Positions 1,322 to 20,462 of a stretch of DNA of 41,813 bases are shown one piece after another. Position 1 is the first letter of the stretch. Each line of letters opens with the position of its first letter. The notes under the pieces are model-generated. The model had not been told where the DNA came from. It saw only the letters and a program-made list of their open reading frames with translations, and did no database searches. The DNA is from a virus. Where the stretch lies: the IMG/VR virus record IMGVR_UViG_3300036895_000036, positions 1 through 41,813 of that record; one strand, written 5' to 3'. The position numbers and the translations under genes are program-made.

Positions 1322-2818
1322 ATGGATGCGCTCAATCCAGAGTTAGTTTTGTTAAAGCAACGCAAGTTACAGTTGCTTACAGCCAAAGTCACGGCTATCA
1401 AACAAGACTCACTTCCATTTTATCGTCCTCACCCGAAGCAGGACTTATTTCATCGGTCGTTGCAGAAGCGGCGTGGAGTGTTTACTGGTAACCGCTTCGG
1501 TAAATCCTTTATGGGTGTGGCCGAAGACTGTGCGTGGCTTCGTGGTGAACGTCCGTGGTACCCTACCGACGATCCTGCAAGGCGGAGTGGTATTCCACAA
1601 CGCCCCGTTAAAGGCTTAATCATTGCCACCGACTGGGATAAAGTCAAAGAAATCTTTAGTGGTCAGGATGGAAAACTGTGGAAGTTTCTTCCACGCAACG
1701 GATTCATAAAAAATGTCTCACGTAACCACAGCGGCGCTATTGATACTATCATCTGCAACGGCCCTTTCGGCCTTAGTAGTCTTCGCTTCGATACTGTTAA
1801 GTCATTTATGTCCAACCCCCAAGGTTCTGAGTCCTCTGACTGGGACTTCATTCACGTTGACGAACCTTGTCCAGAAGGAATGTTCAAAGCCGCCGCACGT
1901 GGATTAGTTGATCGTAATGGATTTGCGTGGTTCACTCTTACGGCGCTGCGTGAACCGTGGATCACCGACGCTTTCGACGTTGACGGAATCTTTGATGGTA
2001 TCTCCAGTGTTATCGAAGGAACAATTTACGACAATATATACTTGTCAAAGGAGGCTATACGAGATTACGAAGCTACTCTCACCGAAGACGAAAAAGAGTG
2101 CCGATTGTTTGGCAAGCCGCTGCACAAAGCGGGTTTAGTCTACAAATGCTTCCAGCAAGACAAGCACGTGCTTACCACTCTCCCTCGTGGTTGGCTTTCG
2201 TGGATAGAGCCACCAAAAGATTGGTCATATTATCTTTACATAGACCCCCATCCCCACACACCGCACATGGTGCTTTTCCTCACTGTTGATCCTTTTGGGC
2301 GTAAATACTACTACACTGACATCTTTGAGCATTGTTTAATATCACAACTCGTGGAGAAGATTCGTGTAGTTCTTAATGGTCGGAGAGTTGTCCGTGTTCG
2401 TTGTGACCCTATCGCTTTTAATGAAGACTGTGTCGATGGTAACAACATGGCAACCGAGTTCTGGCGTTGTGGTCTCGCAGTTGAGAAATCCTCGAAAGAC
2501 CTTAGCAGAGGTATTCTACGTGTAAACGAAGCCCTTCAACTCAAAGGCGGCTGGCCATTGTTCACACCTGAATGTCGGCGTAGCTTGTGGGAAATTAAAC
2601 GTTACCACTACGACGAAGAAAAAGGTAAGCCAGTCGACAAAGACGACCATGCTATGGAGTGTTTGTATCGCAGTGTTTTAGACGAGCCTTGCTATGTCGA
2701 GCCGCAAAAAGAACAAACTATCACGGAAGAAACTATGAACTCTTTGCCGCCGTTGTTTTTCGAGAAACTTGGGAGTGATGAAGTTGTAGTCACAAGGGAA
2801 GACTTAATGTTAAACTAA
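1322..2818 (+). CDS. terL: Terminase large subunit
   Basis: A 498-aa protein of normal terminase length; the DNA-packaging motor cuts and pumps the genome into the prohead. A Walker A-type loop, GNRFGKS, lies near residues 55-62, and a Walker B segment ending in an acidic pair, FIHVDEP, near residues 176-182. The C-terminal half looks like the RNase H-fold nuclease: a YIDP strand near residue 305 and KDDHAMECLYR near residue 440 supply the expected aspartates. The start at 1322 has no Shine-Dalgarno sequence; the dyad copy 1 ends 2 bp upstream. A signal-peptide gene follows 1 bp after the stop. Confidence 0.93.
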   Translation: MDALNPELVLLKQRKLQLLTAKVTAIKQDSLPFYRPHPKQDLFHRSLQKRRGVFTGNRFGKSFMGVAEDCAWLRGERPWYPTDDPARRSGIPQRPVKGLIIATDWDKVKEIFSGQDGKLWKFLPRNGFIKNVSRNHSGAIDTIICNGPFGLSSLRFDTVKSFMSNPQGSESSDWDFIHVDEPCPEGMFKAAARGLVDRNGFAWFTLTALREPWITDAFDVDGIFDGISSVIEGTIYDNIYLSKEAIRDYEATLTEDEKECRLFGKPLHKAGLVYKCFQQDKHVLTTLPRGWLSWIEPPKDWSYYLYIDPHPHTPHMVLFLTVDPFGRKYYYTDIFEHCLISQLVEKIRVVLNGRRVVRVRCDPIAFNEDCVDGNNMATEFWRCGLAVEKSSKDLSRGILRVNEALQLKGGWPLFTPECRRSLWEIKRYHYDEEKGKPVDKDDHAMECLYRSVLDEPCYVEPQKEQTITEETMNSLPPLFFEKLGSDEVVVTREDLMLN

Positions 2819-2819
2819 T

Positions 2820-3332
2820 ATGAAAAAAATACTATTGATTGTTGGTTTGCTATGTCCATTGTTGGTTTTTGCCCCACCAATAAACACTCAACTGAACGGC
2901 ACAACGGATGTTATTCCGCCACATTCAACGAATGTGCTTGCTCGGGCAACGCTTACCGTTGGCGAAGCGGATAACATTGCTCTCGCCGTTGGGTTTCTTT
3001 ACATTGGCACTAACGCCTCAACTCAAACTTTGTTGTGGCAATCTTCAATGGACGGGGTGAATAATTGGACGACGTTTGATACATGGACAATGATTTTAGT
3101 GTCTAACCCACTCCCCGTTTTTTATGGGCCGACGAATTATACTAACCTTCTACCAGGAGTGTGGCAGATTCGTCCGACGTGGTCTATGACCAATGCGGCG
3201 TTAAGCCTTACAAGTTACCTCACTAACGTAACAACTAATGGTGGTATTGTTTATACAAACATAATCACAAACACGGCAGCTTTTCCAGTCGATACTAACG
3301 TCGTGGTCAAAGGCATAACTAAACTTAAATGA
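2820..3332 (+). CDS. Exported Thr/Asn-rich protein
   Basis: A 170-aa protein starting with a clear Sec-type signal (MKKILLIVGLLCPLLVFAPP), then a beta-rich Thr/Asn/Trp region. The ATG is 1 bp after the terminase stop with no Shine-Dalgarno sequence, and its stop overlaps the next ATG (3329). The Thr-Asn pairs match those in the next four genes, so this is probably part of one adhesin or spike cassette. It may be a spike accessory or a secreted surface protein. An export signal is unusual for a virion protein. No domain family is recognised. Confidence 0.75.
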   Translation: MKKILLIVGLLCPLLVFAPPINTQLNGTTDVIPPHSTNVLARATLTVGEADNIALAVGFLYIGTNASTQTLLWQSSMDGVNNWTTFDTWTMILVSNPLPVFYGPTNYTNLLPGVWQIRPTWSMTNAALSLTSYLTNVTTNGGIVYTNIITNTAAFPVDTNVVVKGITKLK

Positions 3333-6300
3333 ACCGTCTAGCTTTAATTTTGGTGTTTTTGTTTTTGACGTTGAAAGCTAACGCTATTTACGTCACAAAT
3401 CTTTTTGTCTTTCCGGACGGAAATACAAATAGGAACGTTTCTGTTTCTTTTGAGTCTATTGGAACGCCGTTGGTCTTATCAAACGGCACAACGATTGTGT
3501 CGTATTCGTTTAATTGTGTCGCAACGAACGGAGTGTTAGGGTCAACATTCCTTGTTGGTGGCCCAAATTACAAAGTTACTTTTGGACCTAATCCAAGCGG
3601 AACGTGGACTATTGGAGCGCCGTTAGGAACGAATACGTACGCTTTGGCATCATTAGCTTTTAATGTCAATTTGATAACGAATGGTTATTTACCCGGCATT
3701 TTATATGTGACGAATTATTACAACTCCACAAATGTGATATCGAATAGTTTTTATGTTACAAACATCACTCAGATAACGAATGTGTATAACATCACAAATG
3801 GAAGTGGTGGTTATGCAACTAATGCTATTGCAAACAATAATGGGTGGGGGACTAACATTATCTTTTATGGTGCAACCAACGGCGCGAGCGGCCTTCCGCT
3901 GGCGGATACGAGCCTAATCACGTCCAACTTCGACATGAGCGTGAACTGTGGCAACCTTCCCAACCTTAAAGTTGCTCTGCAATCCAATGTGCCGCCAATT
4001 GTCCTGACCACAGGCGATTCAACCGGGGATTATTTTCTCATTCCATTTCAGGCGTGGCTGACAGCTTATGATTTTAACCACGCGATTCAACACACAGTGG
4101 TTTTTGGGGCGGGTTCATCATGGAATTGTAACTGGTATCCGAACAACGGCTCAAATGGAGGCGCAAACATGGTCTATGTTGTCAATCCTACATACTACTG
4201 GATGAATACCGGCGTGATTTCGGCTGGAACAAACGTCTATTGGGGAGGCATCGCCAACTATGGAGTCCAGTACGGGATTGGAAACAGGGTTACGGTTTGT
4301 ATGGAAGCGAGCGCATCCAACGGAGTTGCTTCGCTTTATTACAGTCTCGACTTCGTGAATTGGACCTATCTCGGATCGCTCAACGAGGCCGCGCTTGGCA
4401 AGGAAGGGCAGTTGGTGTTCACCAACTTCTCAGTGCCTCTTGGCAACTACGCGATCAGACTTGCTTGCACAAGCGGCAACTTCGCTTTTGTGGGCAACGT
4501 GGGCGTGATTCAAACGAACTGCACGGTGCCAATACTGGAGACGATCAACGGGCCGGGGTATGCGATGCAGTTGCTAACCAATATGGGGACAAATCTGGAC
4601 ATCCTGTTGTCCAACATCAACCCATGCTTGACGATTGAGGAACAGGTCAAACCTCTCAACACGTTCAATGACTACACGAACTTCGCATGGCACATGTCAA
4701 ATTCGGCTCCTAACTCCGATGTGCTTCTAATTGGGACTTACGCATCCGACCCGGCGGCTGAAATCGTCAATCCGCCAAACGCCATCACGTTCGATATGTC
4801 GCTATTTGAGCATAATGTGGCAATCACAAACTCCTGGCCGTTTGTTGACACATGGCATCCTATGGGGACTTGGTATAATATCACGAACAGAGGTTTCTGG
4901 CTCGGCGATGGGCCTCATTTAAATGCGCTCGGACAGAGCATATTATCAGCAGTCACGATGCAGCGGCTGAACTTTATGTCACTTTGGCAGAACGCGGGCC
5001 GGGCAACCGTCCCAACCAATTACGGCGCGCCAACAATTAACGGAAACGTCACCATCAACCCCTCTGGATTTGTTACAGACCCGATACAGATTGGGGCAAG
5101 CGGTCCGTATTTCAATGCGCTTTCCCTCTGCACTTACGGCGGCTCTCTCCAATCTGGAAACTATGCCATTGGACAATATTGCGATGGCGCATCGCAGACG
5201 TTCCTTCACGGGAGCGTTTTGGAATTTACCACAACATCGCAAGTGCCGTGGATGCAGATGTGGGGCGATGGAGGGCTATCCTTGTTGGACATGTATAACG
5301 ACCCGCATAAATCCGTTGACCCAGGCGGCCCAGGCGTCCTGCTTGTCAACACCATCACTAACTACGGATTGGCTTATATCTCCAGCTTGCTAACCGGGAT
5401 ATTGACAAACAATGGGAACCTTTGGAATACTGGGCAAGGCATTTTCGGGAACGGGTTATATCTGTCCGGCGGCAGACTTGGATTTCCGTCTGGCGGCGGG
5501 ATTAACACGGACACAAGTTTTTCTTTGTATGGAGGGAGCTTTGGCGGAGCAATAACAAATTCAAGTTGGGTTACAAATGCAGCAAATGTGACCAACGGAC
5601 AAAATGTAGTTACATTAGGGACGGAGACCGCCTCCAGCTTCAGCGGCAGCGGCAACGCGTTGACGGGCACGAACCAAGCCAACTCCGGCAACCTCCAGAG
5701 CGGCGGCACGAACGGCGCGGCGGGCATGGTGCCGACCTTCACGGGCGTCGGCGGGACATGGACGGCTCAGACGCCCAGCGGCGGTGGCGGATCCACAAAT
5801 GGGCTGGCGCCGCTTACAAACGCCAATCTCCACAACCCAATACTCAATGGCGCAACCAACGGCGTTACCGGGCTGCCGCTGGCGGACACGAGCGTGACAA
5901 ACGGGCTGGCGCCGGCCAGCGCGCTGGCGGCGCAAGGAGCGGCGATCAGCAACACGTTCGCGCCGGCATCGAGCGTTGCAAGCCAGTTGGAAACTGGGGG
6001 ACAAAGCGATGAGTTTTTTGGGTTCGATGCGGGACAAACCGGAATGACCGGGGTGGCTAATAGCGGCTTGGGCGCGTTTGCGTTGGAGAACATTTGGGGC
6101 GGGAGCTATAATACGGCGTTAGGGGAGGGAGCCTTGAATTTCAATATCTCCGCGAATGACAATACGGCGGTGGGATGCGGAAGCCTGCTCGGGAGCACGA
6201 CAGGGTTTAACAATTCGGCATTAGGTTATCAGTCGGGATTGCACCTGTCAACGGGCAACAACAATACCGTGTTGGGTTATCAAGCTGGACGAAACCTGAC

Positions 6301-6955
6301 AACGACTTCGAATAACATTGAGATTGGCAATGGTGGCGCAGCGACCGATCAAGGCCAAATCCGCCTCGGCACACCCGGCCAGCAAACGAACACAATACTC
6401 TCCGGCGACGTGAGCACGACGAGCAACATTACCGCCTTGCTTAATGTGACAGCGAGCAACCTCAACCTCGGCGGCCCGATCACGAGCGCAGCAGGCAGTA
6501 ACAACTTGCAGGCGCTGAACGTGGTAGGGAACCTGTCGGCGGGGAGCATATCCTACGTTCAAACCAATGGGCCTCCGGTAACGAATAATATCGTCACGCA
6601 AAGCGGCACGAACATGATTGTTCTGGACGGGACAAATCTTTGGCAGTGGGCAAACCCATTCTACTATGTTGCGTTGACGGCAAGTTCGGTTGTGCGACTG
6701 AGCAACTGGCCATCAGGAACAACGATCACTTTACAGGTTCAAAATAGCACCGGATTTGCAACGAACACGCTGAACTATTACACCAATCAATCTACCTCCG
6801 GGAGCTATGGATGCGGAGTGCAGCCAAACGCGCCAGGACAGTTTGTGACCATGCCCACCAACAACGCCGGGTGTATCTTGATGGATCAGTTCTTAATCTT
6901 GTCCGGGCCAACCAACAGCGCTTGGCTTGGAGTTCAAAACCCGATTATACGATGA
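3329..6955 (+). CDS. Tail spike/adhesin with SGNH hydrolase and YadA-head-like repeats
   Basis: A 1208-aa protein. Residues 1-19 form a signal peptide (MNRLALILVFLFLTLKANA). A Thr/Asn-rich N-terminal part is followed by a module resembling an SGNH/GDSL esterase: block I GDSTGDY near residue 228 and a block V-type DGPHLNALG near residue 526, which would supply the catalytic Ser and Asp/His. Near residues 925-1000 are short repeats of the NTALGEGAL / NTAVGCGSL / NSALGYQSG type, as in trimeric autotransporter head domains. The peptide GATNGxxGLPLADTS occurs near residues 181 and 841, bracketing the enzyme part. Likely a trimeric receptor-binding or surface-glycan deacylating spike. The export signal is puzzling for a virion protein. 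Confidence 0.8.
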   Translation: MNRLALILVFLFLTLKANAIYVTNLFVFPDGNTNRNVSVSFESIGTPLVLSNGTTIVSYSFNCVATNGVLGSTFLVGGPNYKVTFGPNPSGTWTIGAPLGTNTYALASLAFNVNLITNGYLPGILYVTNYYNSTNVISNSFYVTNITQITNVYNITNGSGGYATNAIANNNGWGTNIIFYGATNGASGLPLADTSLITSNFDMSVNCGNLPNLKVALQSNVPPIVLTTGDSTGDYFLIPFQAWLTAYDFNHAIQHTVVFGAGSSWNCNWYPNNGSNGGANMVYVVNPTYYWMNTGVISAGTNVYWGGIANYGVQYGIGNRVTVCMEASASNGVASLYYSLDFVNWTYLGSLNEAALGKEGQLVFTNFSVPLGNYAIRLACTSGNFAFVGNVGVIQTNCTVPILETINGPGYAMQLLTNMGTNLDILLSNINPCLTIEEQVKPLNTFNDYTNFAWHMSNSAPNSDVLLIGTYASDPAAEIVNPPNAITFDMSLFEHNVAITNSWPFVDTWHPMGTWYNITNRGFWLGDGPHLNALGQSILSAVTMQRLNFMSLWQNAGRATVPTNYGAPTINGNVTINPSGFVTDPIQIGASGPYFNALSLCTYGGSLQSGNYAIGQYCDGASQTFLHGSVLEFTTTSQVPWMQMWGDGGLSLLDMYNDPHKSVDPGGPGVLLVNTITNYGLAYISSLLTGILTNNGNLWNTGQGIFGNGLYLSGGRLGFPSGGGINTDTSFSLYGGSFGGAITNSSWVTNAANVTNGQNVVTLGTETASSFSGSGNALTGTNQANSGNLQSGGTNGAAGMVPTFTGVGGTWTAQTPSGGGGSTNGLAPLTNANLHNPILNGATNGVTGLPLADTSVTNGLAPASALAAQGAAISNTFAPASSVASQLETGGQSDEFFGFDAGQTGMTGVANSGLGAFALENIWGGSYNTALGEGALNFNISANDNTAVGCGSLLGSTTGFNNSALGYQSGLHLSTGNNNTVLGYQAGRNLTTTSNNIEIGNGGAATDQGQIRLGTPGQQTNTILSGDVSTTSNITALLNVTASNLNLGGPITSAAGSNNLQALNVVGNLSAGSISYVQTNGPPVTNNIVTQSGTNMIVLDGTNLWQWANPFYYVALTASSVVRLSNWPSGTTITLQVQNSTGFATNTLNYYTNQSTSGSYGCGVQPNAPGQFVTMPTNNAGCILMDQFLILSGPTNSAWLGVQNPIIR

Positions 6956-7686
6956 TGAAAACAATACTTCTTGTACTTCTCTGCTGCTCTCGTTGCTTTG
7001 CGGGGATGCTGATGCAGAGTGCCATTCCTGGGTGTGTTGGGTGGTGGACGATGAATGAAGGAACAGGCTCCAATTTAGTGAATTATGGCTCCTTGGGGGC
7101 GGCATACAACGGCTTGGCTATAAATAATCCAACGTGGACAAATGGGGTTGTCAATAATGGACTTATAATAAAATCCTCCCCCGTTCAATATGTTGACTGT
7201 GGTGGCCCAATTGGCAATGGTTTTACAGGAATCTCATTTTCTTTATGGGCCTATCCGACAAATGTGTCCAGCTCCCAAACCGTAATAGGCGAATATGCTT
7301 CGTCCAACGTGATGTGTTTTGACTGCGACATACAAAATTTAGGAGTAAGTCAAGCAGTATTTAACATTAAAGGTGTAACCTTAGCACGGCAAGACCTAGC
7401 TCAGATTGGCACCAATGAACTTAACAATTGGACGTTCATTGCAGGAACATGGGATGGTGTCACGCAGATTCTTTATGTAAATGGCGCCTCCAACACGGCC
7501 GCGTCATTTATTGACAGTGCCCTTGGAACAGCGACTGCACATTTAACCATCGGAGCTTATGCCCCAGGCGCAAATCAGAATTTCAGAGGAAGGTTAGACG
7601 ACGTTCGTATCTACAGCCGCGCTCTAACCCCTAGCGAAATTGCAACCATTTACGGCCCAAACGGTTCGGGATGCCCTCACGAATAA
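6952..7686 (+). CDS. Exported LamG/concanavalin-like lectin domain protein
   Basis: A 244-aa protein. The start at ATG 6952 overlaps the stop of the spike gene and gives a signal peptide (MMKTILLVLLCCSRCFAG). A longer frame from 6811 exists but lies inside the spike gene. The rest is one LamG-like jelly-roll domain: GWWTMNEGTGSNLVNYG at the start, a central GNGFTGISFSLWAYPT strand, and the typical ending RLDDVRIYSRALTPSEI. Such domains bind glycans. With the spike it probably forms a surface-binding cassette. Its stop overlaps the next ATG by one base. Confidence 0.85.
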   Translation: MMKTILLVLLCCSRCFAGMLMQSAIPGCVGWWTMNEGTGSNLVNYGSLGAAYNGLAINNPTWTNGVVNNGLIIKSSPVQYVDCGGPIGNGFTGISFSLWAYPTNVSSSQTVIGEYASSNVMCFDCDIQNLGVSQAVFNIKGVTLARQDLAQIGTNELNNWTFIAGTWDGVTQILYVNGASNTAASFIDSALGTATAHLTIGAYAPGANQNFRGRLDDVRIYSRALTPSEIATIYGPNGSGCPHE

Positions 7687-8063
7687 TGAAACTCTCCTTC
7701 ACCCTCAGGCTTCTCACATCGCTCCTCTGCCTCACGGCGCGGGCGCAGAGTCCTGTTGGAAGCAACTATATAACTGTAGCTTGGAATCCAATTCCAGTAG
7801 CATCAAGCTATACGGTCTATGCTGGCTTGGAGAGCAACAATCTCACAATGAGTTGGACTGCTACGTCTAATCAAGTCACCGTGTTAGCGCCTGTCGGAGT
7901 GCTTTACATTGCGGCAACCTCTACAGTAAATGGATTGGAGTGTCCTTACTCAGCCGTGATTTGCGGCACGAACTATCAGCAGCCAATTACTGGACTGACA
8001 TGGACAAATAATATCACCAATGTGGGGATAACAACTATAATTTTCAACATCAATAACCATTAA
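7686..8063 (+). CDS. Exported FN3-like domain protein
   Basis: A 125-aa protein starting at ATG 7686 (TAATG overlap with the LamG gene); the frame extends to 7671, but that start lies inside the LamG gene. Residues 1-22 are a signal peptide ending ARA. The following part resembles a single fibronectin type III domain: VAWNPIPVASSYTVYAG, an Asn/Thr-rich middle, a LYIAATSTVNG strand and an ending with YS. The tail is Thr/Asn/Ile-rich. Likely an accessory adhesin or surface protein of the same cassette. No enzyme motif is seen. Confidence 0.75.
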   Translation: MKLSFTLRLLTSLLCLTARAQSPVGSNYITVAWNPIPVASSYTVYAGLESNNLTMSWTATSNQVTVLAPVGVLYIAATSTVNGLECPYSAVICGTNYQQPITGLTWTNNITNVGITTIIFNINNH

Positions 8064-8066
8064 CTC

Positions 8067-8411
8067 ATGAATCCACAAGAACAAGCGCATAATGACTTAC
8101 TTGACAACAGAGAAGCAGCTAAGGTATCAGCTAGTATTTCTGACGCCATTACAATAAGGCAAGCCACATTTGGTCATATCTTACAAATGTTAGTTCTTGG
8201 TTGTGTTGGTATTGTTGGTTTCTTTCTACAAAAAGAAGTTTCAATGAACCGCGAAACTCATGATACAGTTATTCAACATGGTGCTGCATTGAATGATATG
8301 TCAAACCATCTTGATAGAATTGAAGAGAAAATGAAACGTAATTCTTTAATAGATCGTAGCATTGATTCAACTAATGTTACTTTGATTTCTGGATTGGTTA
8401 GCAATAAATAA
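8067..8411 (+). CDS. Membrane protein with coiled coil (lysis-region candidate)
   Basis: A 114-aa protein with a polar N-terminal helix of about 35 residues, one transmembrane segment near residues 36-56 (GHILQMLVLGCVGIVGFFL) and a C-terminal part suited to a coiled coil (around residues 63-95). It has no Shine-Dalgarno sequence and begins 3 bp after the previous stop. One membrane span with a coiled coil, next to two-span holin-like proteins and a lipoprotein, would fit an inner-membrane spanin or holin regulator. There is no sequence family to confirm this. Confidence 0.65.
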   Translation: MNPQEQAHNDLLDNREAAKVSASISDAITIRQATFGHILQMLVLGCVGIVGFFLQKEVSMNRETHDTVIQHGAALNDMSNHLDRIEEKMKRNSLIDRSIDSTNVTLISGLVSNK

Positions 8412-8415
8412 ACAA

Positions 8416-8544
8416 ATGAACGACCCTAAGATAGTTTTAGTTGGAATAGCTTTGGTATTAGCTGTTGTTGCTATTATCAAACCAACATGGCCTCTGTGCG
8501 CAGTTGCTATTATACTGATTAGCACATATCTGTTAATGAAATAA
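8416..8544 (+). CDS. 42-aa two-span membrane protein, holin candidate
   Basis: A 42-aa gene: ATG 8416 four bases after the previous stop, TAA at 8542-8544, next ATG at 8548. The protein is almost entirely two hydrophobic helices, KIVLVGIALVLAVVAII and PLCAVAIILISTYLLM, separated by a short turn with Lys-Pro-Thr, and it ends in Lys. The shape matches small pinholin or holin-accessory proteins. It is shorter than most annotation cutoffs. The function is inferred from topology and neighbours only. Confidence 0.65.
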   Translation: MNDPKIVLVGIALVLAVVAIIKPTWPLCAVAIILISTYLLMK

Positions 8545-8547
8545 ACT

Positions 8548-8853
8548 ATGACAAAAACAAACATGAAACTCGCACTGGACTGCATTGCAGTAGCTTGTAT
8601 GGCACTTGGTGGTGCATCAACTATTCCAGGAACAGGACTTCCTCCACAGTTTCTTGCTTGGGGGTTGATTATTGGATCGGTTGCTAAAGCTGTATCTAGT
8701 CAACTTTCTCAAGTTAAGGGAAACTCTGATGAAACTCAGGGCATCACCCCCTCACAAATTGCTACTTCACAGGCAATTCATGATGCTGCAAAAACTCCTG
8801 TTATTGCAGTGCAAACTCCTATTCAAACTGTAACTCCAACTCCATCGAAATAA
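8548..8853 (+). CDS. Putative holin
   Basis: A 101-aa protein with two probable membrane helices near residues 8-26 and 31-52 (LAWGLIIGSVAKAVSS) and a polar, Pro/Thr-rich C-terminal tail. The size and topology fit a class II holin, which forms lesions in the inner membrane to release or activate the lysis enzyme. It lies between a 42-aa two-span protein and a lipoprotein. The start is 3 bp after the previous stop with no Shine-Dalgarno sequence. No family-specific motif can be claimed. Confidence 0.6.
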   Translation: MTKTNMKLALDCIAVACMALGGASTIPGTGLPPQFLAWGLIIGSVAKAVSSQLSQVKGNSDETQGITPSQIATSQAIHDAAKTPVIAVQTPIQTVTPTPSK

Positions 8854-8857
8854 CAAC

Positions 8858-9286
8858 ATGAAACGTAATCTCCTCATGCCAACATTGTTGGCTCTAACTA
8901 TTACTGCAACAATCTTTTCTGGTTGTGCAAAACTTCAACCAGGGGCTGATCCTATTGTTGTTCGTGCTGAACAACTTGAAACTACAGCTTATAGCACATT
9001 CGATACATTCCTCAAGTTGGACGATATTGCAATGGCTAATACTACAATTGCTCCTACTTGGACTAATTCTGCACATCCATTTGCAACATATCTTCGCAAG
9101 CCAGTTCAGAATGGAACAAATACAGTGCCTTTTGGTATTGCTACTGTTCTATCACTCGATCAAGTTAAGTTGGCTTATCAAGCTGGAACAACTAGTTCCA
9201 ACGCACTTGTAACTGCTATCACTGTTCTGACTACCACAATTAGTCAGGTTTCACAATATACATCGTTAATCTCAACAAACAAATAA
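8858..9286 (+). CDS. Lipoprotein, possible outer-membrane spanin or surface protein
   Basis: A 142-aa protein starting with a lipoprotein signal: MKRNLLMPTLLALTITATIFSGC, with Cys as the likely lipidation site after Phe-Ser-Gly. The mature part is Thr-rich with two amphipathic stretches and no enzyme motif. In phages, lipoproteins of the lysis region are usually outer-membrane spanins, but those are normally much shorter, so a superinfection-exclusion lipoprotein is an alternative. The gene follows the holin candidate by 4 bp. Confidence 0.65.
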   Translation: MKRNLLMPTLLALTITATIFSGCAKLQPGADPIVVRAEQLETTAYSTFDTFLKLDDIAMANTTIAPTWTNSAHPFATYLRKPVQNGTNTVPFGIATVLSLDQVKLAYQAGTTSSNALVTAITVLTTTISQVSQYTSLISTNK

Positions 9287-9525: not shown

Positions 9526-11514
9526 ATGGATGATAAAATTCTAAAAGAGTTAAAAGAGCGAGAGTCTACTCCGTTTATCCAACAAATGCTTGAAGACACT
9601 AGAGCATTAGTGTCTATCAGCAGACGAAAGATGACAGAATACTACCCTTGTTGGGACAAAAACGACGATATTTATCGTTCCATAAAACAGCGTGATAAGT
9701 CTGATATTCTAGCCTTTGAACGCAATGAACCGGAGAAGATGGTCGTTCCAATCTCTTTCGCCCAGATTCAAACGTTCGTTGCGTTCTGTTTCCTTCTTTA
9801 CTATCAACGAGATAGGTTTTTTGAGTTGGATGGATTTACCGCAGAGGATGATAAACCCGCAAAAGTGGGTGAGGCGTTGTTAGCCCGTGACCTAACTAAG
9901 AATGTTTTTGAAGCGAAGTTGGTGCAATATCTTTTGGACATTGCTCGTTTTGGGATTGGAGTATTGAAGGTTTCATGGAGCGTGGAAAAGCAGATGGTGC
10001 GTAAAGAAACGCCTAAAATTGCTCCGACGTTTCTGGGGGTGAAAATGGGTAAAGATACTGTAGAAGAAACTGTTGAATGGGCGACGGCGTTTGAGGGTAA
10101 TCGTATAACCAACATAAGCCCTTACCGATTTTTTCCTGATGTGCGTTTACCTTTAACCCGTTTTCAAGAAGGAGAATTTTGTGCAAGTGAAGATTTGTAT
10201 TCAATGTCGCAACTTAAACAATGGGAGCATGATGGTATCATTGCCGGAGTTGACCACATTAAACCACTTGGTAAAGACATCGCACAAGACAGAGGGTATC
10301 GTTGGGATACTGGACTTGATCCGGGCGGCGCTCTTACACAAGGCGCGGGAATCAAGGGAGACGGTCAGACAAAAAAGACTGTTATCATTACTGAATGTCA
10401 ACGCACGATTATCCCATCGCAGTATGAAGTCGACGGTGAGCCACTCGGAGAAGAAGATTACCCAATAAAATACAACGTATGGATTGCTAACGACAATCGA
10501 GTGATAAAGTGCGAGCCAATGAATTACTTGCACAACGAGTTTACTTTCGGCGTTGGGCAGTTCATATACGACAACAACGTGCTTCTGTCGCCTGGATTAT
10601 CAGATGTTATCGACCAGTTACAGAACGTCATCTCTTGGTTTATCAATTCACGTATTACCAATGTTCGTAAGGTTATTGCGGATAAGTTGATTGTGAACAC
10701 CTCAATGGTGAACATGTCAGACCTCACAAATCGAAAGCCGATTATTAGGTTGACTGGAGCGGCCACTGGTGATATTGACAAATATATAAAGCAGTTGCAG
10801 TTGCAAGATGTCACTATCCAGCACATCGCTGACGTTAAGGACTTACACGACATCTTGAAAATGGTGACAGGTATTCAAGACTCTTTGCTTGGTGAGGTGC
10901 GTCCCGGACATCGTTCAGCGACGGAGAACCGTAATACAACAACAGGAGCAGCTTCGCGTAATAAAACCTTAGCCGCTGTTATTTTCAGAAGTGGACTTGA
11001 GCCGATTGGACGGCAGATGTTGTCTAACTTACGTGATGGTCTCGACGAAGAGACTTATGTCCGCGTGCTACAGTCTAAAGCACAAGCCACTCCTGAGTTT
11101 ATTAAGGTGACGAAAAAAGACCTTGTTGGCCATTATGATTTTGAAGTGTTTGACGGGACGTTGCCCTCTGACCGTTATCACATTGCAGAGGCAATAGACG
11201 AACTGTTACAAGCACTTCTTAAAAACCCACAAGCGGCGATGTATCTTGGTATGGACCCAAAGAAACTTCTTATGGAGTCGTTGCAGCTTAGGGGAGTAAG
11301 AAACCCAGAGCGTTTTGCTCTACAACCGGAGCCAAATCCAAATGTTATTGAACCAGGCGCAGGCCAAGCCGTTGCCGGAGGACCCGGAGTTAATCCTGCG
11401 GGGACTGCGGGAGCTATACCAGAATCCTTATTACCGTTACTTACTGGAGCAACTAGCGGTGGAGGAAATAACGGCGACGGCGGAGGTGTTCCAAGTGCTG
11501 GAACCCGCCAGTGA
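9526..11514 (+). CDS. Portal protein (head-tail connector)
   Basis: A 662-aa protein of the size and composition of podovirus portal proteins, which form the dodecameric ring through which DNA enters and leaves the head. Support comes from the all-alpha N-terminal part, the YYQRDRFFELDG and LLDIARFGIGVLKVSW regions, a helix-rich middle (residues about 360-500) with NTTTGAASRNKTL, and a Gly/Pro/Ala-rich C-terminal tail from about residue 605. Its place upstream of scaffold and capsid is classic. The last 200 bp overlap another frame that seems to encode a separate protein. Translation starts 2 bp after dyad copy 2. Confidence 0.82.
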   Translation: MDDKILKELKERESTPFIQQMLEDTRALVSISRRKMTEYYPCWDKNDDIYRSIKQRDKSDILAFERNEPEKMVVPISFAQIQTFVAFCFLLYYQRDRFFELDGFTAEDDKPAKVGEALLARDLTKNVFEAKLVQYLLDIARFGIGVLKVSWSVEKQMVRKETPKIAPTFLGVKMGKDTVEETVEWATAFEGNRITNISPYRFFPDVRLPLTRFQEGEFCASEDLYSMSQLKQWEHDGIIAGVDHIKPLGKDIAQDRGYRWDTGLDPGGALTQGAGIKGDGQTKKTVIITECQRTIIPSQYEVDGEPLGEEDYPIKYNVWIANDNRVIKCEPMNYLHNEFTFGVGQFIYDNNVLLSPGLSDVIDQLQNVISWFINSRITNVRKVIADKLIVNTSMVNMSDLTNRKPIIRLTGAATGDIDKYIKQLQLQDVTIQHIADVKDLHDILKMVTGIQDSLLGEVRPGHRSATENRNTTTGAASRNKTLAAVIFRSGLEPIGRQMLSNLRDGLDEETYVRVLQSKAQATPEFIKVTKKDLVGHYDFEVFDGTLPSDRYHIAEAIDELLQALLKNPQAAMYLGMDPKKLLMESLQLRGVRNPERFALQPEPNPNVIEPGAGQAVAGGPGVNPAGTAGAIPESLLPLLTGATSGGGNNGDGGGVPSAGTRQ

Positions 11515-14571: not shown

Positions 14572-14605
14572 GCGTGGGGGTCATTAAATGACCTCCACGC
14601 TTTTT
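14572..14605 (+). terminator. Terminator-like hairpin around dyad copy 3
   Basis: The sequence from 14572 to 14600 is a 29-bp inverted repeat with one mismatched pair around the W centre; its outer arms are GCGTGG and CCACGC. It is followed directly by TTTTT (14601-14605). It therefore has the look of a rho-independent terminator built on the dyad element, just before the next gene starts at 14609. Confidence 0.6.
14574..14598 (+). promoter_or_regulatory. 25-bp dyad element, copy 3
   Basis: Core GTCATTAAATGAC at 14580-14592 with the outer GT and AC pairs. This copy has the most extended symmetry of the seven. The next gene start (14609) is 10 bp after the element rather than 2; an alternative ATG at 14588 lies inside the core. 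Confidence 0.85.
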
Positions 14606-14608
14606 AAT

Positions 14609-15334
14609 ATGCCTAATCTTAATACTCAATCAAACTTAGCAACGGCAATAGCCGGGTTTATGCACCGTGATGCTAAGGTGTTTTTACGTGATGGGTTTGA
14701 CTTGCTTTTGCAGTCGTGTAATAATGCTCGGTTATACGCTGAAAGAATGGTTGACTTTGAGTATGCAATAGCTAATGTCACTATTCCGGCGGTTGATTTA
14801 CATAATGGTGCGTCATTGTCAACAGCGGTGCTCACAGGAACAACGACCCCGGCGAATGTAAAAAAGATAATGACTCCGTGGCTTGGGGAGATTGGCGGAA
14901 CACAATTTCCTGTTGATTTAGTGGATAAGCGAACGTGGAACGACCGCTTGAAGCGCCGTTATGAAGGCGCTCGGCCAAAACACACGGCTGATTATGCGTT
15001 TATTACGGATTCGCCGTTTGTGTGTGTGCAAACAGGTAATACTATTTTCGTGGCTCCGGCAGATAACAAAGCATTAGGTGGAACGTTCCCGATTTTTCTG
15101 GATGCGTGGTTATGGCTGCCACCATACGTCGACGGCACAGAAACAGACTTTCTACTTGCTAATTGTTTTGATTGGATGCTTTATAGATGTATTTATGAGT
15201 TAAACTTTTTTCTAAAAGAAGACGAACGAGTAATGCTTTCAACACGTCTTATGGAAAACTCTTGGGACGCGTTGGTGAAGTGGAACAATGAACTAATAAA
15301 AGCGGCGGCAGATAGCGTCGCAGACATGGACTAA
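14609..15334 (+). CDS. Putative neck/head-tail adaptor protein
   Basis: A 241-aa protein from ATG 14609; the frame extends to ATG 14588 inside the dyad, which seems less likely. The protein starts with a helix (NLATAIAGFMHRDAKVF) and ends with a second helical block, NCFDWMLYRCIYELNFFLKE, with a beta-rich middle. This two-block plan between capsid and tail fibre resembles podovirus head-tail adaptors, which sit under the portal. The family could not be named with certainty. Confidence 0.55.
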   Translation: MPNLNTQSNLATAIAGFMHRDAKVFLRDGFDLLLQSCNNARLYAERMVDFEYAIANVTIPAVDLHNGASLSTAVLTGTTTPANVKKIMTPWLGEIGGTQFPVDLVDKRTWNDRLKRRYEGARPKHTADYAFITDSPFVCVQTGNTIFVAPADNKALGGTFPIFLDAWLWLPPYVDGTETDFLLANCFDWMLYRCIYELNFFLKEDERVMLSTRLMENSWDALVKWNNELIKAAADSVADMD

Positions 15335-15335
15335 T

Positions 15336-16850
15336 ATGCCTTATGATAGAATAACACCGGCGACATTAGCAAACTTAGGTGCAGTTGCAACTTTGCCACT
15401 TGACACCGAAGACTCGAATGTTCTTGGTGCAGTTGATAGACAAACAAGGGAGTTTATTTACGACTTTCTTAGTAGCGTTTTTGATGCAAATGGTGATTTG
15501 CTTGCTACATCGATAAATGTAGCTACAACGTTGGCTGGTGCAGTAAATGGATCTACTGCTAATACCGCCGGTGTTCAGCAACAAATAGTTCAAGGCACAG
15601 TAAGCACTCCTGATATTCGCGTAGCAGCAATTACGTCAGCGTTGATTGCGGCAGGTGCAGTTACAACTGGGTGTTTAGCTGATGGTTCAGTTACTACTGC
15701 AAAACTTGCAGCGTTGGCGGTTACTTCTGCGCAAATAGCGAACGCTACTATCACAGAAGCACAGATGGCTGCTTCGTCTATAGGCTCAGCAGAGTTAATC
15801 AATTCGTGTGTCACAGCTATTAAAATCGCGGATGGAGTTGTTGGCACTACACAATTAGCTGCATTGTCTGTAACCGCGGCTAAAATAGCAAACAGCACAA
15901 TAACCGAGGCACAAATGGCCCCTTTGTCAGTTGGAACCACTGAGTTGATTGCGTTGAGTGTAACAACCGCGAAGCTGGCGTTGGGTGCTGTGACAGCAGC
16001 ACAGATAGCCGCCGCGACTATCACAGCGGCGAATATGGCTCCGTTGTCTGTTGGTGCATCACAGTTAGTTCTAGCTTGTGTAACTGCCGCACAAATAGCT
16101 AATACAACAATCACCGAGGCACAAATGGCTTTGTTGTCTGTTGGAACACCTGAGCTTATAGCGAAGTGCGTGACCACAGCGAAGATTAACGACGGTGCAG
16201 TTGGTGCTACACAACTTGGTGCTAATGTGGTTGGTGTTGGACAACTAGCGCCGGGCACAGCGGCGGGGCAATTATTGGTATCAGGCACTACGTCACCGTT
16301 TAACTTAGCGTTGGTTAAACCCTCTGGGGACATTACAATGGACGGCACAGGTTTGTTTACTTTAACAGGTAAAGGTATCGCTGTTTTGCAAGAACAGCCG
16401 TCGAATGGTGTGGCTGGTGGGGCAGGTGTAGCTAACACATGGAATGTTCGTGGGGTTACTAACCCATATACAAAAATTGTGGACACAGCTACACCTACTT
16501 TTATTACTAGTGTGACTAGTGGAAAGATTGTTTTAACTCCTGGTTCTTACCTTTTTGATGGTAGTGCACCGGCGTATGCAGTTGTTGGTCACCAAACAAG
16601 AATCAATCACTTCAATTCCACGGGGTCTATTGCAGTGTTACATGGAACCACTGAAAATAGTCCGGTAGCAGCCGCCGTTATGACTAAGTCAGTGTTCACT
16701 AGTGTAGTAGTAATAGCCGCTGGTGATTATGTTCAAATTGAACATTTTATTAACACGCATACTAACGCAAACGATTTTGGTATAGCAGCTGCGGCGGATG
16801 GCGCAGTTTATGAAGTCTATGCACAAATCCGAATCGAGAAACTAAGTTAA
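15336..16850 (+). CDS. Tail fibre with 30-residue repeats and C-terminal receptor domain
   Basis: A 504-aa protein. Residues about 1-100 form an N-terminal attachment part, about 105-300 are repeats of the type VTxAQIAxxTITEAQMAxLSVG, and the last about 140 residues form a Gly/Val/Thr-rich beta-sandwich-like end with a GSYLFDG strand and QIRIEKLS at the terminus. This is the usual plan of a trimeric fibre: a triple-stranded shaft plus a TNF-like receptor-binding tip. It starts 1 bp after the adaptor stop with no Shine-Dalgarno sequence. Confidence 0.75.
   Translation: MPYDRITPATLANLGAVATLPLDTEDSNVLGAVDRQTREFIYDFLSSVFDANGDLLATSINVATTLAGAVNGSTANTAGVQQQIVQGTVSTPDIRVAAITSALIAAGAVTTGCLADGSVTTAKLAALAVTSAQIANATITEAQMAASSIGSAELINSCVTAIKIADGVVGTTQLAALSVTAAKIANSTITEAQMAPLSVGTTELIALSVTTAKLALGAVTAAQIAAATITAANMAPLSVGASQLVLACVTAAQIANTTITEAQMALLSVGTPELIAKCVTTAKINDGAVGATQLGANVVGVGQLAPGTAAGQLLVSGTTSPFNLALVKPSGDITMDGTGLFTLTGKGIAVLQEQPSNGVAGGAGVANTWNVRGVTNPYTKIVDTATPTFITSVTSGKIVLTPGSYLFDGSAPAYAVVGHQTRINHFNSTGSIAVLHGTTENSPVAAAVMTKSVFTSVVVIAAGDYVQIEHFINTHTNANDFGIAAAADGAVYEVYAQIRIEKLS
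15655..16240 (+). repeat. About 90-bp repeats encoding the fibre shaft
   Basis: Five to six degenerate units of about 30 codons each, centred on ACAAATAGC (Gln-Ile-Ala) and GAGGCACAAATGGC (Glu-Ala-Gln-Met). The repeats vary at the third codon positions, so they have diverged under selection rather than arising by recent slippage. Confidence 0.6.
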
Positions 16851-16853
16851 AAT

Positions 16854-17090
16854 ATGATACTAAACATTGTAGAAACATCCAATATGCCGCCGTCTTTGAC
16901 GGTAGCACAACTGAGAGACATACTAGGAATGGTAGTGGGCGGTGGTCTTTCAATCGTATTTGCCGGTGCGAAGGGGGCGACGCCGACAACATCACCAACT
17001 GTGGCAGGGCAATATGCCATTAACCAATCCACAAATGAATTATGGTTCGTCAATAGTTCACTCGCGTGGCAACAAATCATCAAAGTGTAA
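16854..17090 (+). CDS. Small structural-region protein, unknown
   Basis: A 78-aa protein with a hydrophobic-glycine stretch (DILGMVVGGGLSIVFAG, about residues 22-39), followed by a Thr/Pro-rich linker and a short beta-like end with LWFVNSSLAWQQI. The end resembles the AINQSTNELWFV-type strands seen in phage fibre tips. It may be a fibre-associated or chaperone-like protein. It starts 3 bp after the fibre stop. Confidence 0.5.
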   Translation: MILNIVETSNMPPSLTVAQLRDILGMVVGGGLSIVFAGAKGATPTTSPTVAGQYAINQSTNELWFVNSSLAWQQIIKV

Positions 17091-17091
17091 T

Positions 17092-17358
17092 ATGAAAAAA
17101 ATACTTATCTGTGTTGGTGTAGTCGTTGGCGTTAGTTTACTATTGCTTGCACAGCCTCCTGCGGCGTCTATCTCAGGTTCGTTGACGCTTACTAACGACG
17201 GCGTCAATGTTTACGTCTCCACCAACCTTCCTGTGGCGTTATCAACAAACTCCATCACACCTCCAACAGCTATCGCCAACTACGGTATACTGTGGAACTC
17301 TAACAGCGCTTTGTATTGGGTTACAACCTCACACACAAACAGACTTAGCGCACCTTAA
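17092..17358 (+). CDS. Small exported protein
   Basis: An 88-aa protein that begins with a signal peptide-like segment (MKKILICVGVVVGVSLLLLA), then a Ser/Thr/Asn-rich beta-like domain with SGSLTLTNDGVNVYVSTN. The ATG is 1 bp after the preceding stop and the next gene starts directly after its own. It resembles the exported Thr/Asn proteins at 2820-8063 in style, and may be a further accessory to spike or fibre. Confidence 0.6.
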   Translation: MKKILICVGVVVGVSLLLLAQPPAASISGSLTLTNDGVNVYVSTNLPVALSTNSITPPTAIANYGILWNSNSALYWVTTSHTNRLSAP

Positions 17359-18792
17359 ATGGCCACTACTCGACAGTTTATCCTCCATGAGAACGTCATA
17401 GGAGGGATGGATTCAACGACGCCAGCGCATCTTATAGGTGAAAAATGGCGGAGTCAGCACAACTTTAGGCTGACTCCGACGTTACAACAAGTGCCTAAAA
17501 AGGTGCAGTTGACGGCTCCAACAGGTACACCTATTACGTTTATAGGTTATATTCCTTCTTTTGTGTCTGGTTATGGGCAGCAAGTTATTTTGACATCTCC
17601 AACCCGTGCGCAGCGTTGGTCAACTGCACTTTACAACGGAACGCTTTACACTAGCTTATCAAGTTATATCACAATCTGGTATGACCATTTTGTAAAAGCA
17701 GCGGTTAATACAGTGCAGATAAGCGACTTGTATGATTTTACAAACTTTACTCCTGACGCCACAAACGAAGCAGATTATTACGACTTAGTTGAATGGCAAC
17801 AGCCAGATTATTTGTATAGTGGTATCACTGGAGTGGGTAAGTTAGGTAGCACACTTTGGATTTACACACCCACTGCTATTATCCCTATTCAGTATATAGG
17901 CTTGCCAAAGGTGATACAGGTTGTGGAATCTGGTGTAATTACTCGAATAGGAAATTCGTTTCCGTGGACGTTAGTTTGCTTGGGTAATGTGCACTTTTTT
18001 TATGAAGCATACGAGAGCATGTTTTTTGCTTTTAACGGGGGTGGTGCACCAGAAGCTATTGGTGAACCAGTGAGGGAATTTATCCAACAGAATCTTAACC
18101 CCGACCCGACATTAGCAAAGTTAATGTATGGGTATATTGATGTCGACAATCGAGAAATTTGGTGGCCTTTTGTGTCAAAGAACTCTACAGGCACGTATGA
18201 TTTAGCTGTGGTTTTTAATTATCGTTACAAACGCTGGTTCACTGCATCAGTTGAAGATGTTACGTGTTTCTGCGGTCGTGGGTTTGAAACACAACCAATC
18301 GAAGATTTGAGTGGAACTATTGATGGTTTGATTGGGCCGATAGACCATTTGAGTTTATCCCCGGCAGAAACACCTCGGCTATTTGGAACAGGGGTTGGAC
18401 AGACCTTACGTGAGGAATTATCGACAGATAGTAGTTCATCTTTACTTCCTACTGATGATCCAGTATTAGAAAGTGGTGATTTTCATTATGGAGATATACG
18501 CACTCAAAAAGAAAACGATGCTATGGTGCTAAATGCGTGGTGGGAGCAAATAGATTTTGATAAGCCGTTAGTGGAGATTCGCGTAGCCACAAGAAACTAT
18601 CTAGGTGAAGGTGTAAAATGGAGCGACGATCCAGTTGCTACTTGGACACCAGACATCCAAGATTCAATTGCAACTTACGAAGCAGTTAATGGCCGTATTT
18701 TACGCTATAAATTTACATTCAAAAACACTCGGCAAGCTGTGTTATCCGCGTATAGTGATGTTGTTTTGGTTAAACTTAAAGCTGAGAAATGA
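17359..18792 (+). CDS. Tail hub/stabilisation-type protein
   Basis: A 477-aa protein of beta-propeller-like composition: repeated aromatic strands (LYNGTLYTSLSSYITIWYD, GSTLWIYTPTAIIPIQYIG, VVFNYRYKRWFTA), few helices and no enzyme motif. From memory, this plan resembles the tail-stabilisation proteins of P22-like podoviruses, which plug the neck below the portal. The gene lies in the neck and tail block and overlaps the next gene by 4 bp. Confidence 0.6.
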   Translation: MATTRQFILHENVIGGMDSTTPAHLIGEKWRSQHNFRLTPTLQQVPKKVQLTAPTGTPITFIGYIPSFVSGYGQQVILTSPTRAQRWSTALYNGTLYTSLSSYITIWYDHFVKAAVNTVQISDLYDFTNFTPDATNEADYYDLVEWQQPDYLYSGITGVGKLGSTLWIYTPTAIIPIQYIGLPKVIQVVESGVITRIGNSFPWTLVCLGNVHFFYEAYESMFFAFNGGGAPEAIGEPVREFIQQNLNPDPTLAKLMYGYIDVDNREIWWPFVSKNSTGTYDLAVVFNYRYKRWFTASVEDVTCFCGRGFETQPIEDLSGTIDGLIGPIDHLSLSPAETPRLFGTGVGQTLREELSTDSSSSLLPTDDPVLESGDFHYGDIRTQKENDAMVLNAWWEQIDFDKPLVEIRVATRNYLGEGVKWSDDPVATWTPDIQDSIATYEAVNGRILRYKFTFKNTRQAVLSAYSDVVLVKLKAEK

Positions 18793-19061
18793 ACTTTATA
18801 CAACATTTGGAATGTCTTACAATACCGCATTTGTCTCTTTTTGATGAAGAAGCAAAGAAGTTTGAACAGCCCTCTAAACAATTAAAAGGGGCTGGTAATA
18901 ACTTAATAACTCCTCGCACTAAAGCTACAGATGGATTGGGTAATGGAGGTGCTTTGTATCTACCAACCTTTATACAAGGCCGTAATACACCTCAACGTGG
19001 TTCGCTTTACGTTACACCCATGCAAGGTGGAAGAAACCAAAGAAGTAATGATAACGATTGA
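18789..19061 (+). CDS. Small tail-region protein, unknown
   Basis: A 90-aa protein coupled by a 4-bp overlap (ATG 18789) to the tail protein gene. It contains a helical first part (FDEEAKKFEQPSKQL) and a Gly/Arg/Asn-rich end. The next gene starts 14 bp before its stop, so three genes are translationally linked. No family is recognised. Confidence 0.5.
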   Translation: MNFIQHLECLTIPHLSLFDEEAKKFEQPSKQLKGAGNNLITPRTKATDGLGNGGALYLPTFIQGRNTPQRGSLYVTPMQGGRNQRSNDND

Positions 19062-19455
19062 ACAGGTGAAAGACGTTAACGAGATTATATCAAAGTGGCG
19101 TAGATTAGCTATGTTAACTGATAATGACCTCGTTAATAATCTTGAGGAAGTTTTACAGATGTATCTACACTGTTTAACTAATGGTGCTGTGTTTTTTGTC
19201 TATGGTGCTTCGGGGTTGATGGGAACTTGTTGCTTAGAATGTTGGCCGGAGTTTGTTAATTTACTATCTTTGCCTAAAGACAATGGTGTAGGGATGGCTA
19301 AGAAGTGTATAGACGTCGTCAAAACCTGGGCAAAAGAAAATGGATACAGTGAGGTTAGAGTAATGTCCACTAAACTTAATGGTTCGTCGTTTCGCTATTT
19401 TGAAAAATCGTTAGGTTTTCGTCGACATGCAATAACATTCAAATTGAATTTTTAA
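19048..19455 (+). CDS. GNAT-family acetyltransferase-like protein
   Basis: A 135-aa protein. The start at ATG 19048 is preferred over 18931 because the longer version would run through the previous gene. The C-terminal part carries the late GNAT pattern: VKTWAKENGYSEVRV followed by SFRYFEKSLGFRRHAITFKL, the usual end of such acetyltransferases. The middle has a Gly-rich segment (DNGVGMAKKCIDVV) where the acetyl-CoA loop is expected. Such genes in phage structural blocks may modify virion or host proteins. The target is unknown. Confidence 0.65.
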   Translation: MITIEQVKDVNEIISKWRRLAMLTDNDLVNNLEEVLQMYLHCLTNGAVFFVYGASGLMGTCCLECWPEFVNLLSLPKDNGVGMAKKCIDVVKTWAKENGYSEVRVMSTKLNGSSFRYFEKSLGFRRHAITFKLNF

Positions 19456-19456
19456 T

Positions 19457-20458
19457 ATGCAAATACAACTACCTTCAATGTTTCGTTCAGGCTTGGGTTA
19501 TGAAGTATCTAAGTTTGAGTCGCCGTTAATAATCCGTCCAGAAGTCTTTTGCCAAGCAGAGATTAGTATATACGATTCTTCCGGGAATTACTTAGGTGAG
19601 TATGATCCTAGTTCTGGTGGTGCTGGGGGCACTGGTATAGGTGATGGTGCCACTGTTGGTGATCAGTCTAATAGCTCGTTTGGCGGTACTGGGGGAACCC
19701 CGACGGTTAATGTCGACGCGATGGATACGTCGTTTTCTAGAAATGGCGTTACAAATCAACAACGACAATCTTCAGGGGCTTGGCCAACGAGTAATGTTAC
19801 TTTAGCACTTAGTGATTGGTTGGTGACACAACCAGAAGTGACTAGTGAACAAACAGCCCTAAACGCCTTGCTGAAACAATCAAGCACGGTGTTTGATACA
19901 AAGGCGTTTTTGAGTAGTGTTTTAGGCTTGCCGCAGTCTGCTTTAGCTACGGTTAATTTATCGGATATTTATACACTTAATCCGTTCGGTAACACGTATG
20001 AAGTTAATACTTTAGCTTTGTATACAAGACAATATCTTATTGCACGAGCGGCCGCACAAAGTGGGCCTACTAATGTTCGTGGTGGAACTGCTCGTCAAGG
20101 CTTTGAATTAGCTGAGTTAGATACTCTGATGGCAATAAACCAATTTCGTGAGATTTGGCAGAATCAAGTTAAGGTGGCACAAGTGGTTGTTGAGGCAGCT
20201 AGTGCTGCTGACGCAGCGTGGGAACAGTTGATAAAACTTCAACTAGAAGCCCAAAAACAGCAAGCGGCGACTGAACAAGGTTTGGTTATGCAAACTTTAG
20301 CCGCGGCTGAACAACTTACAAAAGACAAAGAGGTTTATTTACGTGCTATTTCGTTGCAAGCTGAGGCGAATGGGTATATGGTTACAACAGAAAACCTTAC
20401 TGGGCACGGCTTTCAAGGTGGAACTAACACTGGTTTTGGTATGTCAACTTGGAGATAA
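19457..20458 (+). CDS. Internal virion protein candidate
   Basis: A 333-aa protein with a beta-type start, a long Gly/Ser/Thr-rich linker (about residues 52-105), and an Ala/Gln/Glu-rich helical C-terminal half (about 200-310) suited to coiled coil. Placement after the tail protein and before the giant protein is where podoviruses encode proteins ejected into the host. No enzyme motif is present. It starts 1 bp after the preceding stop with no Shine-Dalgarno sequence. Confidence 0.5.
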   Translation: MQIQLPSMFRSGLGYEVSKFESPLIIRPEVFCQAEISIYDSSGNYLGEYDPSSGGAGGTGIGDGATVGDQSNSSFGGTGGTPTVNVDAMDTSFSRNGVTNQQRQSSGAWPTSNVTLALSDWLVTQPEVTSEQTALNALLKQSSTVFDTKAFLSSVLGLPQSALATVNLSDIYTLNPFGNTYEVNTLALYTRQYLIARAAAQSGPTNVRGGTARQGFELAELDTLMAINQFREIWQNQVKVAQVVVEAASAADAAWEQLIKLQLEAQKQQAATEQGLVMQTLAAAEQLTKDKEVYLRAISLQAEANGYMVTTENLTGHGFQGGTNTGFGMSTWR

Positions 20459-20462
20459 ATTT

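Follow-up and report, generated by a model that had tools for sequence, protein, structure and literature searches.

According to the textbook view, tailed phages assemble wholly in the cytoplasm. To our knowledge, the receptor-binding proteins of virions are generally free of export signals, and we know of no tailed phage that mounts Sec-exported fibres. The filamentous phages have virion proteins with Sec signals (pIII and pVIII) that are assembled outside the cytoplasm, and the receptor-blocking or superinfection-exclusion lipoproteins of the T5 Llp type are phage-encoded, exported and active at the envelope. For the target proteins of phage DGRs, an absence of signal peptides was reported (PMC6199706), and Porphyromonas phages of the proposed Nixviridae were described as encoding several Q-rule signal proteins without assigned function, with potential host-surface modification (PMC10367356). 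No precedent for an exported spike/lectin cassette or for exported tail fibres was found in the literature covered (open-licence PMC papers). The locus examined here includes four adjacent genes (2820, 3329, 6952, and 7686, named by their first nucleotide) and resembles tail fibre and tailspike receptor-binding proteins (PHROG 4636, 9017, and 4250; S74-type) in its domain types and shaft modules, in the combination of a conserved N-terminus with a swapped C-terminus, and in occupying a slot that holds signal-free fibres in relatives; it differs in that those proteins have no N-terminal Sec/Tat signal, whereas all four of these genes have one. Like the Porphyromonas phage proteins, those of the cassette are phage-encoded and have Sec signals adapted to the host, several of them of the Q-rule type, but no spike/lectin cassette between terminase and portal was described for those phages, which are other phages with other hosts. 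Filamentous pIII and pVIII are assembled during membrane extrusion, whereas the present phage is tailed, has dsDNA, and encodes a terminase and a portal; and T5 Llp-type proteins are small and single, whereas the cassette is a large multidomain spike-like set.

The stretch of DNA analysed (hereafter the window) is an entire IMG/VR record of 41,813 nt. It encodes a terminase (1322), a portal (9526), a major capsid protein (12574), and a tail module (14588-22271), with the late strand opposed by a replication strand, and it represents a member of a short-tailed (podovirus) family seen in metagenomes only. Genes 2820-8063 and their companions occupy the slot bordered on the left by TerL (1322..2818; PHROG 5653/10250 terminase, 43 viral relatives) and on the right by the portal gene (9526..11514; PHROG 332/15554/1216); these and the other window genes described below lie on the plus strand. 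Sequence inspection gave the end of the slot a lysis-like appearance, with a single-TM protein with a coiled-coil-like tail (8067..8411) and a small hydrophobic protein that is holin-like by position only (8548..8853); family searches returned no match at a useful E for the former and no match for the latter. Two routes to the host were tried and set aside: a prophage search gave one hit only, a possibly misbinned contig from an Acidobacteria MAG, and the TerL matches to isolated phages (23-31% identical) were too distant, there being no close cultured relative. The polymerase was likewise 23-29% identical to isolated phages among the matches listed. A palindrome, GTCATTWAATGAC, was found in seven exact copies (window 1301, 9505, 14580, 22277, 29322, 34135, and 38532; zero expected in shuffles), mostly just 5' of gene starts and, among the fetched loci, confined to the closest relatives of the window; it probably serves as a promoter element of the phage or as a site bound by a regulator.

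Signal peptides were called with our own rule-based scorer of n-, h-, and c-regions, not with SignalP. The scorer recovered 10/10 textbook exported proteins, with false calls at 8/2148 internal Met positions and 29/1800 shuffled N-termini, and in the window gene set it called 2820, 3329, 6952, and 8858. Genes 7686 and 17092 were missed where the gene caller had taken a start or a frame further upstream; read from the stop-coupled start, they reach scores of 10.7 and 13.6, respectively. Offsets to the upstream stop are +2 nt for 2820, -3 for 3329 and 6952, 0 for 7686, and +2 for 17092; among the signal-bearing genes checked in the window and its relatives, 30/31 start no more than 3 nt from the upstream stop, 19 of them with a -3 overlap (ATGA type). 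Stop coupling together with homologue alignment ruled out mis-called starts, and the scorer nulls together with the slot enrichment given below ruled out chance hydrophobic N-termini. SPase I features were present, namely a positive n-region, an uncharged hydrophobic core, and small residues at -3/-1, with 2820 deviating by a Pro at +1. The first-pass annotation had claimed export signals for 2820, 3329, 6952, and 7686, a signal on 17092, and a lipoprotein at 8858: the n/h/c grammar bears out the four cassette signals, with coordinates and frames correct, and the scorer and a lipobox agree with the other two, that of 17092 being of Sec type. At the level of sequence, the export-signal features are thus genuine and the starts correct.

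The first gene of the cassette (2820..3332) encodes a 170-aa protein with no assigned fold, predicted to be exported from the signal call. Its signal peptide, MKKILLIVGLLCPLLVFA (2820..2873; scorer), is of doubtful cleavage, since a Pro directly past the predicted site disfavours it, and the product may therefore stay tethered to the membrane. The homologue in relative L006 is 51% identical and carries its own, different signal. Comparison by hhalign showed no homology between 2820 and the small gene that comes first in signal-free relatives. The DNA of window 2816-2846 and 17088-17118, which covers the start and signal codons of 2820 and 17092, is 84% identical, as if the signal of one gene had been copied to the other.

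Gene 3329 (3329..6955) encodes a spike-like protein of 1208 aa, with a match to PHROG 4636 tail spike at aa 888-1029 (E=2.3e-6) and tail-spike-like NTA(L/V)G repeats. Its layout comprises a signal peptide, MNRLALILVFLFLTLKANA^IYVT (3329..3385; score 14.1; the caret marks the predicted cleavage site), a conserved N-terminal module of ~120-190 aa, and a swappable C-terminus. In L005 and L006, whose TerL proteins are 97-98% identical to that of the window, the signal and N-terminal module are kept and the remainder is replaced; the L006 spike has the signal MKHLLYISFLSAALSAKA^ ahead of an identical mature start, IYVTNLF; the two signals are 33% identical and the next 42 aa 79%. The protein had been annotated as a giant SGNH spike, of which the spike-like character stands; the SGNH part comes down to the motifs TTGDS (block I) and DGPH (block V DxxH) in a region with no match in Pfam or PDB. 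Recovery of an SGNH fold by AF2 failed (pLDDT 29), and an SGNH identity is possible at the level of motifs. In the near-identical spike of L003 (gene 5222-8836), NGPH takes the place of DGPH and the putative block V Asp is altered. Among annotated phages, no match was found to the 3329 N-terminus, the SGNH region, or the KIS module that is discussed below for the fibres of relatives.

The lectin gene (6952..7686) encodes a LamG/concanavalin-A-like protein of 244 aa (PF13385, E=1e-24, 87.9 bits, above the gathering score) with the signal MMKTILLVLLCCSRCFA^GMLM (6952..7002; scorer); its homologue in L054 has the signal MKTTLLLLLCCSRCFA^. It is followed by a small Fn3-like protein of 125 aa (7686..8063; AF2 model and PDB matches) with the signal MKLSFTLRLLTSLLCLTARA^QSPV (7686..7745; score 10.7; Q at +1). 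The AF2 model has a pLDDT of 57 and its best PDB matches are nearly all Fn3 (E=0.03), such that the predicted fold is suggestive only. Compared with 7686, the L054 protein is identical over the mature stretch compared and differs in its signal (MKHFFTLILLCLCLCLTARA^), with DNA identity restarting in the signal c-region. Between the window and L005, L006, and L054, recombination swaps spike and lectin genes among otherwise near-identical phages, with one junction within a signal peptide. Further downstream, a putative lipoprotein (8858..9286) has the signal MKRNLLMPTLLALTITATIFSG^C (8858-8923) with Cys 23 and the lipobox FSGC, which has a weak -3 residue; the L006 homologue (75% identical) has VASC.

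A canonical tail fibre without a signal, in the tail module (15336..16850; PHROG 28766/892 tail fibre, E ~1e-25), provided an internal control. Fibres of this type were signal-free in 4/4 genomes checked (the window, L010, L008, and L012), the last three being signal-bearing phages despite their signal-free 15336 homologues. The tail module also encodes a predicted exported protein of 88 aa (17092..17358) with the signal MKKILICVGVVVGVSLLLLA^QPPA (17092-17151), the sequence of which is changed yet intact in the homologues of L055 and L058.

Relatives were collected by an IMG/VR TerL search, which gave 43, and by an alignment search, which added more. Among TerL-portal slot genes with a length of 100 aa or more, we found 50/185 to be signal-bearing vs 7/382 genes elsewhere in the same loci (Fisher p ~1e-19, an optimistic value given the relatedness among the surveyed sequences), with 35/130 vs 3/282 in a first pass of the survey. 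Four consecutive signal genes (at least 100 aa) also occur in L072 and L046; since L046, a distant phage, lacks any match to the TerL family and is similar only in one tail protein, and weakly so, the pattern of signal cassettes spans phage lineages. Homologues that start past the hydrophobic segment had been proposed as evidence against export: the direct homologues were instead found to keep the signal (L005, L006, and L054, as well as the KIS-domain fibres of L007, L009, L010, L045, and L046), whereas same-slot, same-domain genes elsewhere are without it. Signal-free slot genes include LamG (L016), beta-helix (L011), and S74 chaperone fibre (L038) proteins and a tail fibre in L019 (PHROG 4492, 3e-39). 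That LamG and beta-helix genes lack the signal in the same slot points to a lineage-dependent signal rather than a mis-called start. The signal-bearing state forms clusters in the TerL tree, where it takes at least 4 changes on well-supported branches, a count that is uncertain because states were hand-coded from gene calls and the TerL-tree backbone is weak. The export signal on the slot cassette is, as judged from these comparisons, a lineage-dependent feature.

The domains found behind the signals are of receptor-binding type. Signal-bearing LamG proteins occur in the window (6952), L010, and L034, and a signal-bearing beta-helix in L012, with that of L072 only at the cut-off. A signal-bearing L071 protein has an EPS-depolymerase-like N-terminus (PHROG 4250, a weak match at E=0.0012), a signal-bearing L034 protein has a tail-fibre C-terminus (PHROG 9017), and the fibre-shaft modules of signal-bearing L034 and L045 proteins are common to signal-free fibres of L018 and L075. 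The signals themselves turn over quickly: in five pairs of KIS-module fibres they are 20-42% identical, compared with 50-81% over the following 42 aa. Gln was enriched at the predicted +1 position (12/38 proteins), which is reminiscent of the Q-rule of Bacteroidetes signal peptides (PMC5837995) and is no proof of a Bacteroidota host. Slot proteins of L045 and L066/L067, which probably share descent, open with MKLSRRKFIKTGLIYVP or MMKRLSRRQFMVKTGLIYVP and carry a classical twin-arginine (Tat) motif of the (S/T)RRxFxK type (SRRKF in L045, SRRQF in L066) that is confined to these relatives, with none in the window. Disulfide folding as a cause of export was rejected, the mature exported proteins being not enriched in Cys (0.79% vs 0.71% in signal-free slot proteins).

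Our favoured reading of these comparisons is that, in this podovirus family, the slot between TerL and portal would be a receptor-binding-protein slot, the products of which are very probably exported in the signal-bearing lineages. In the window and in many relatives, host export signals, usually Sec but occasionally Tat, would govern the cassette in full (spike, LamG lectin, Fn3-like protein, and companions); late in infection the proteins would leave the cytoplasm, lose the signal, and remain in the periplasm or at the inner membrane until lysis, when virions would encounter them. They would then be attached to particles, beyond the cytoplasm, through the conserved N-terminal module, and the swappable C-terminus would be free for binding to the next host. 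The steps of export, cleavage, residence in the periplasm, and virion docking are ones that we infer, and we give export combined with docking a chance approaching even. Somewhat more tentatively still, the phages may represent a tailed dsDNA lineage with two-compartment assembly, in which receptor-binding proteins, exported by host Sec or Tat, are added to virions at lysis or later, beyond the cytoplasm. That adhesin- or spike-type proteins carry export signals was stated in the first-pass annotation and holds; of the two uses it had offered, display or secretion by the infected cell and the addition of a spike part outside the cytoplasm, surface display finds no support, as inspection revealed no sorting signal for the outer membrane at the C-terminus, which makes a periplasmic pool until lysis the simpler reading. 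Docking is favoured by (i) the receptor-binding architecture; (ii) the conserved N-terminus and replaced C-terminus seen with L005/L006, a pattern usual for receptor-binding proteins of virions; and (iii) the signal-free fibres that occupy the same slot in relatives. Counting against it, the signal-free fibre 15336 could serve the virion.

This separate fibre in the tail module is equally a point for the possibility, plausible though short of probable, that the exported proteins never join virions and act as free secreted adhesins or enzymes. These could cover receptors and polysaccharides on the infected cell and on its debris, or strip them off, thereby blocking superinfection and the adsorption of progeny to dead envelopes, and would be set free along with the progeny when the cell lyses. 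LamG, EPS-depolymerase-like, and beta-helix domains, which are carbohydrate-active or -binding, would suit such a role, receptor-blocking phage lipoproteins are known, and docking outside the cytoplasm has no known precedent. The signal-bearing proteins of Porphyromonas phages were also proposed to modify the host surface (PMC10367356). A free enzyme, however, needs no conserved N-terminal module with swapped C-termini, and the fibre shaft and C-terminal modules, along with slot equivalence to signal-free fibres, indicate virion-type proteins. Two other explanations dispense with functional export. The Pro at +1 in 2820, which disfavours cleavage, and a conserved AATIV stretch after the hydrophobic core of several KIS proteins could mean that the hydrophobic N-termini are structural or membrane-active virion segments that stay uncleaved in the particle; we consider this unlikely, as the full n/h/c grammar, A-x-A ends, and Gln at +1 fit export, the sequences turn over fast with their properties conserved, and the Tat motifs in two phages imply that two export routes (Sec and Tat) are in use, which argues against a structural role. 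Least probable, in our estimate, is that the genes were recently captured from host surface adhesins and retain signals as functionless relics: LamG, Fn3, and Calx-beta domains are frequent in bacterial surface proteins, but the signals are intact on adjacent unrelated genes across divergent phages and have been replaced yet look functional, a combination that indicates selection to retain them.

A signal-bearing spike/lectin cassette would imply either that assembly is completed beyond the cytoplasm or that an infected cell sets free a whole arsenal of adhesins and enzymes encoded by the phage, and either outcome would alter the annotation of receptor-binding proteins, since a phage gene with a signal may be written off as a contaminant from the host or as a mis-called start. 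The occurrence of cassettes with and without signals in one slot offers natural matched pairs for testing. The slot also holds response-regulator receiver proteins in several relatives (L007:6215, L009:5593, L045:7515, L066:6768, and L080:14408); in L066 one protein combines HATPase and receiver domains, and these two-component proteins adjoin the exported cassette.
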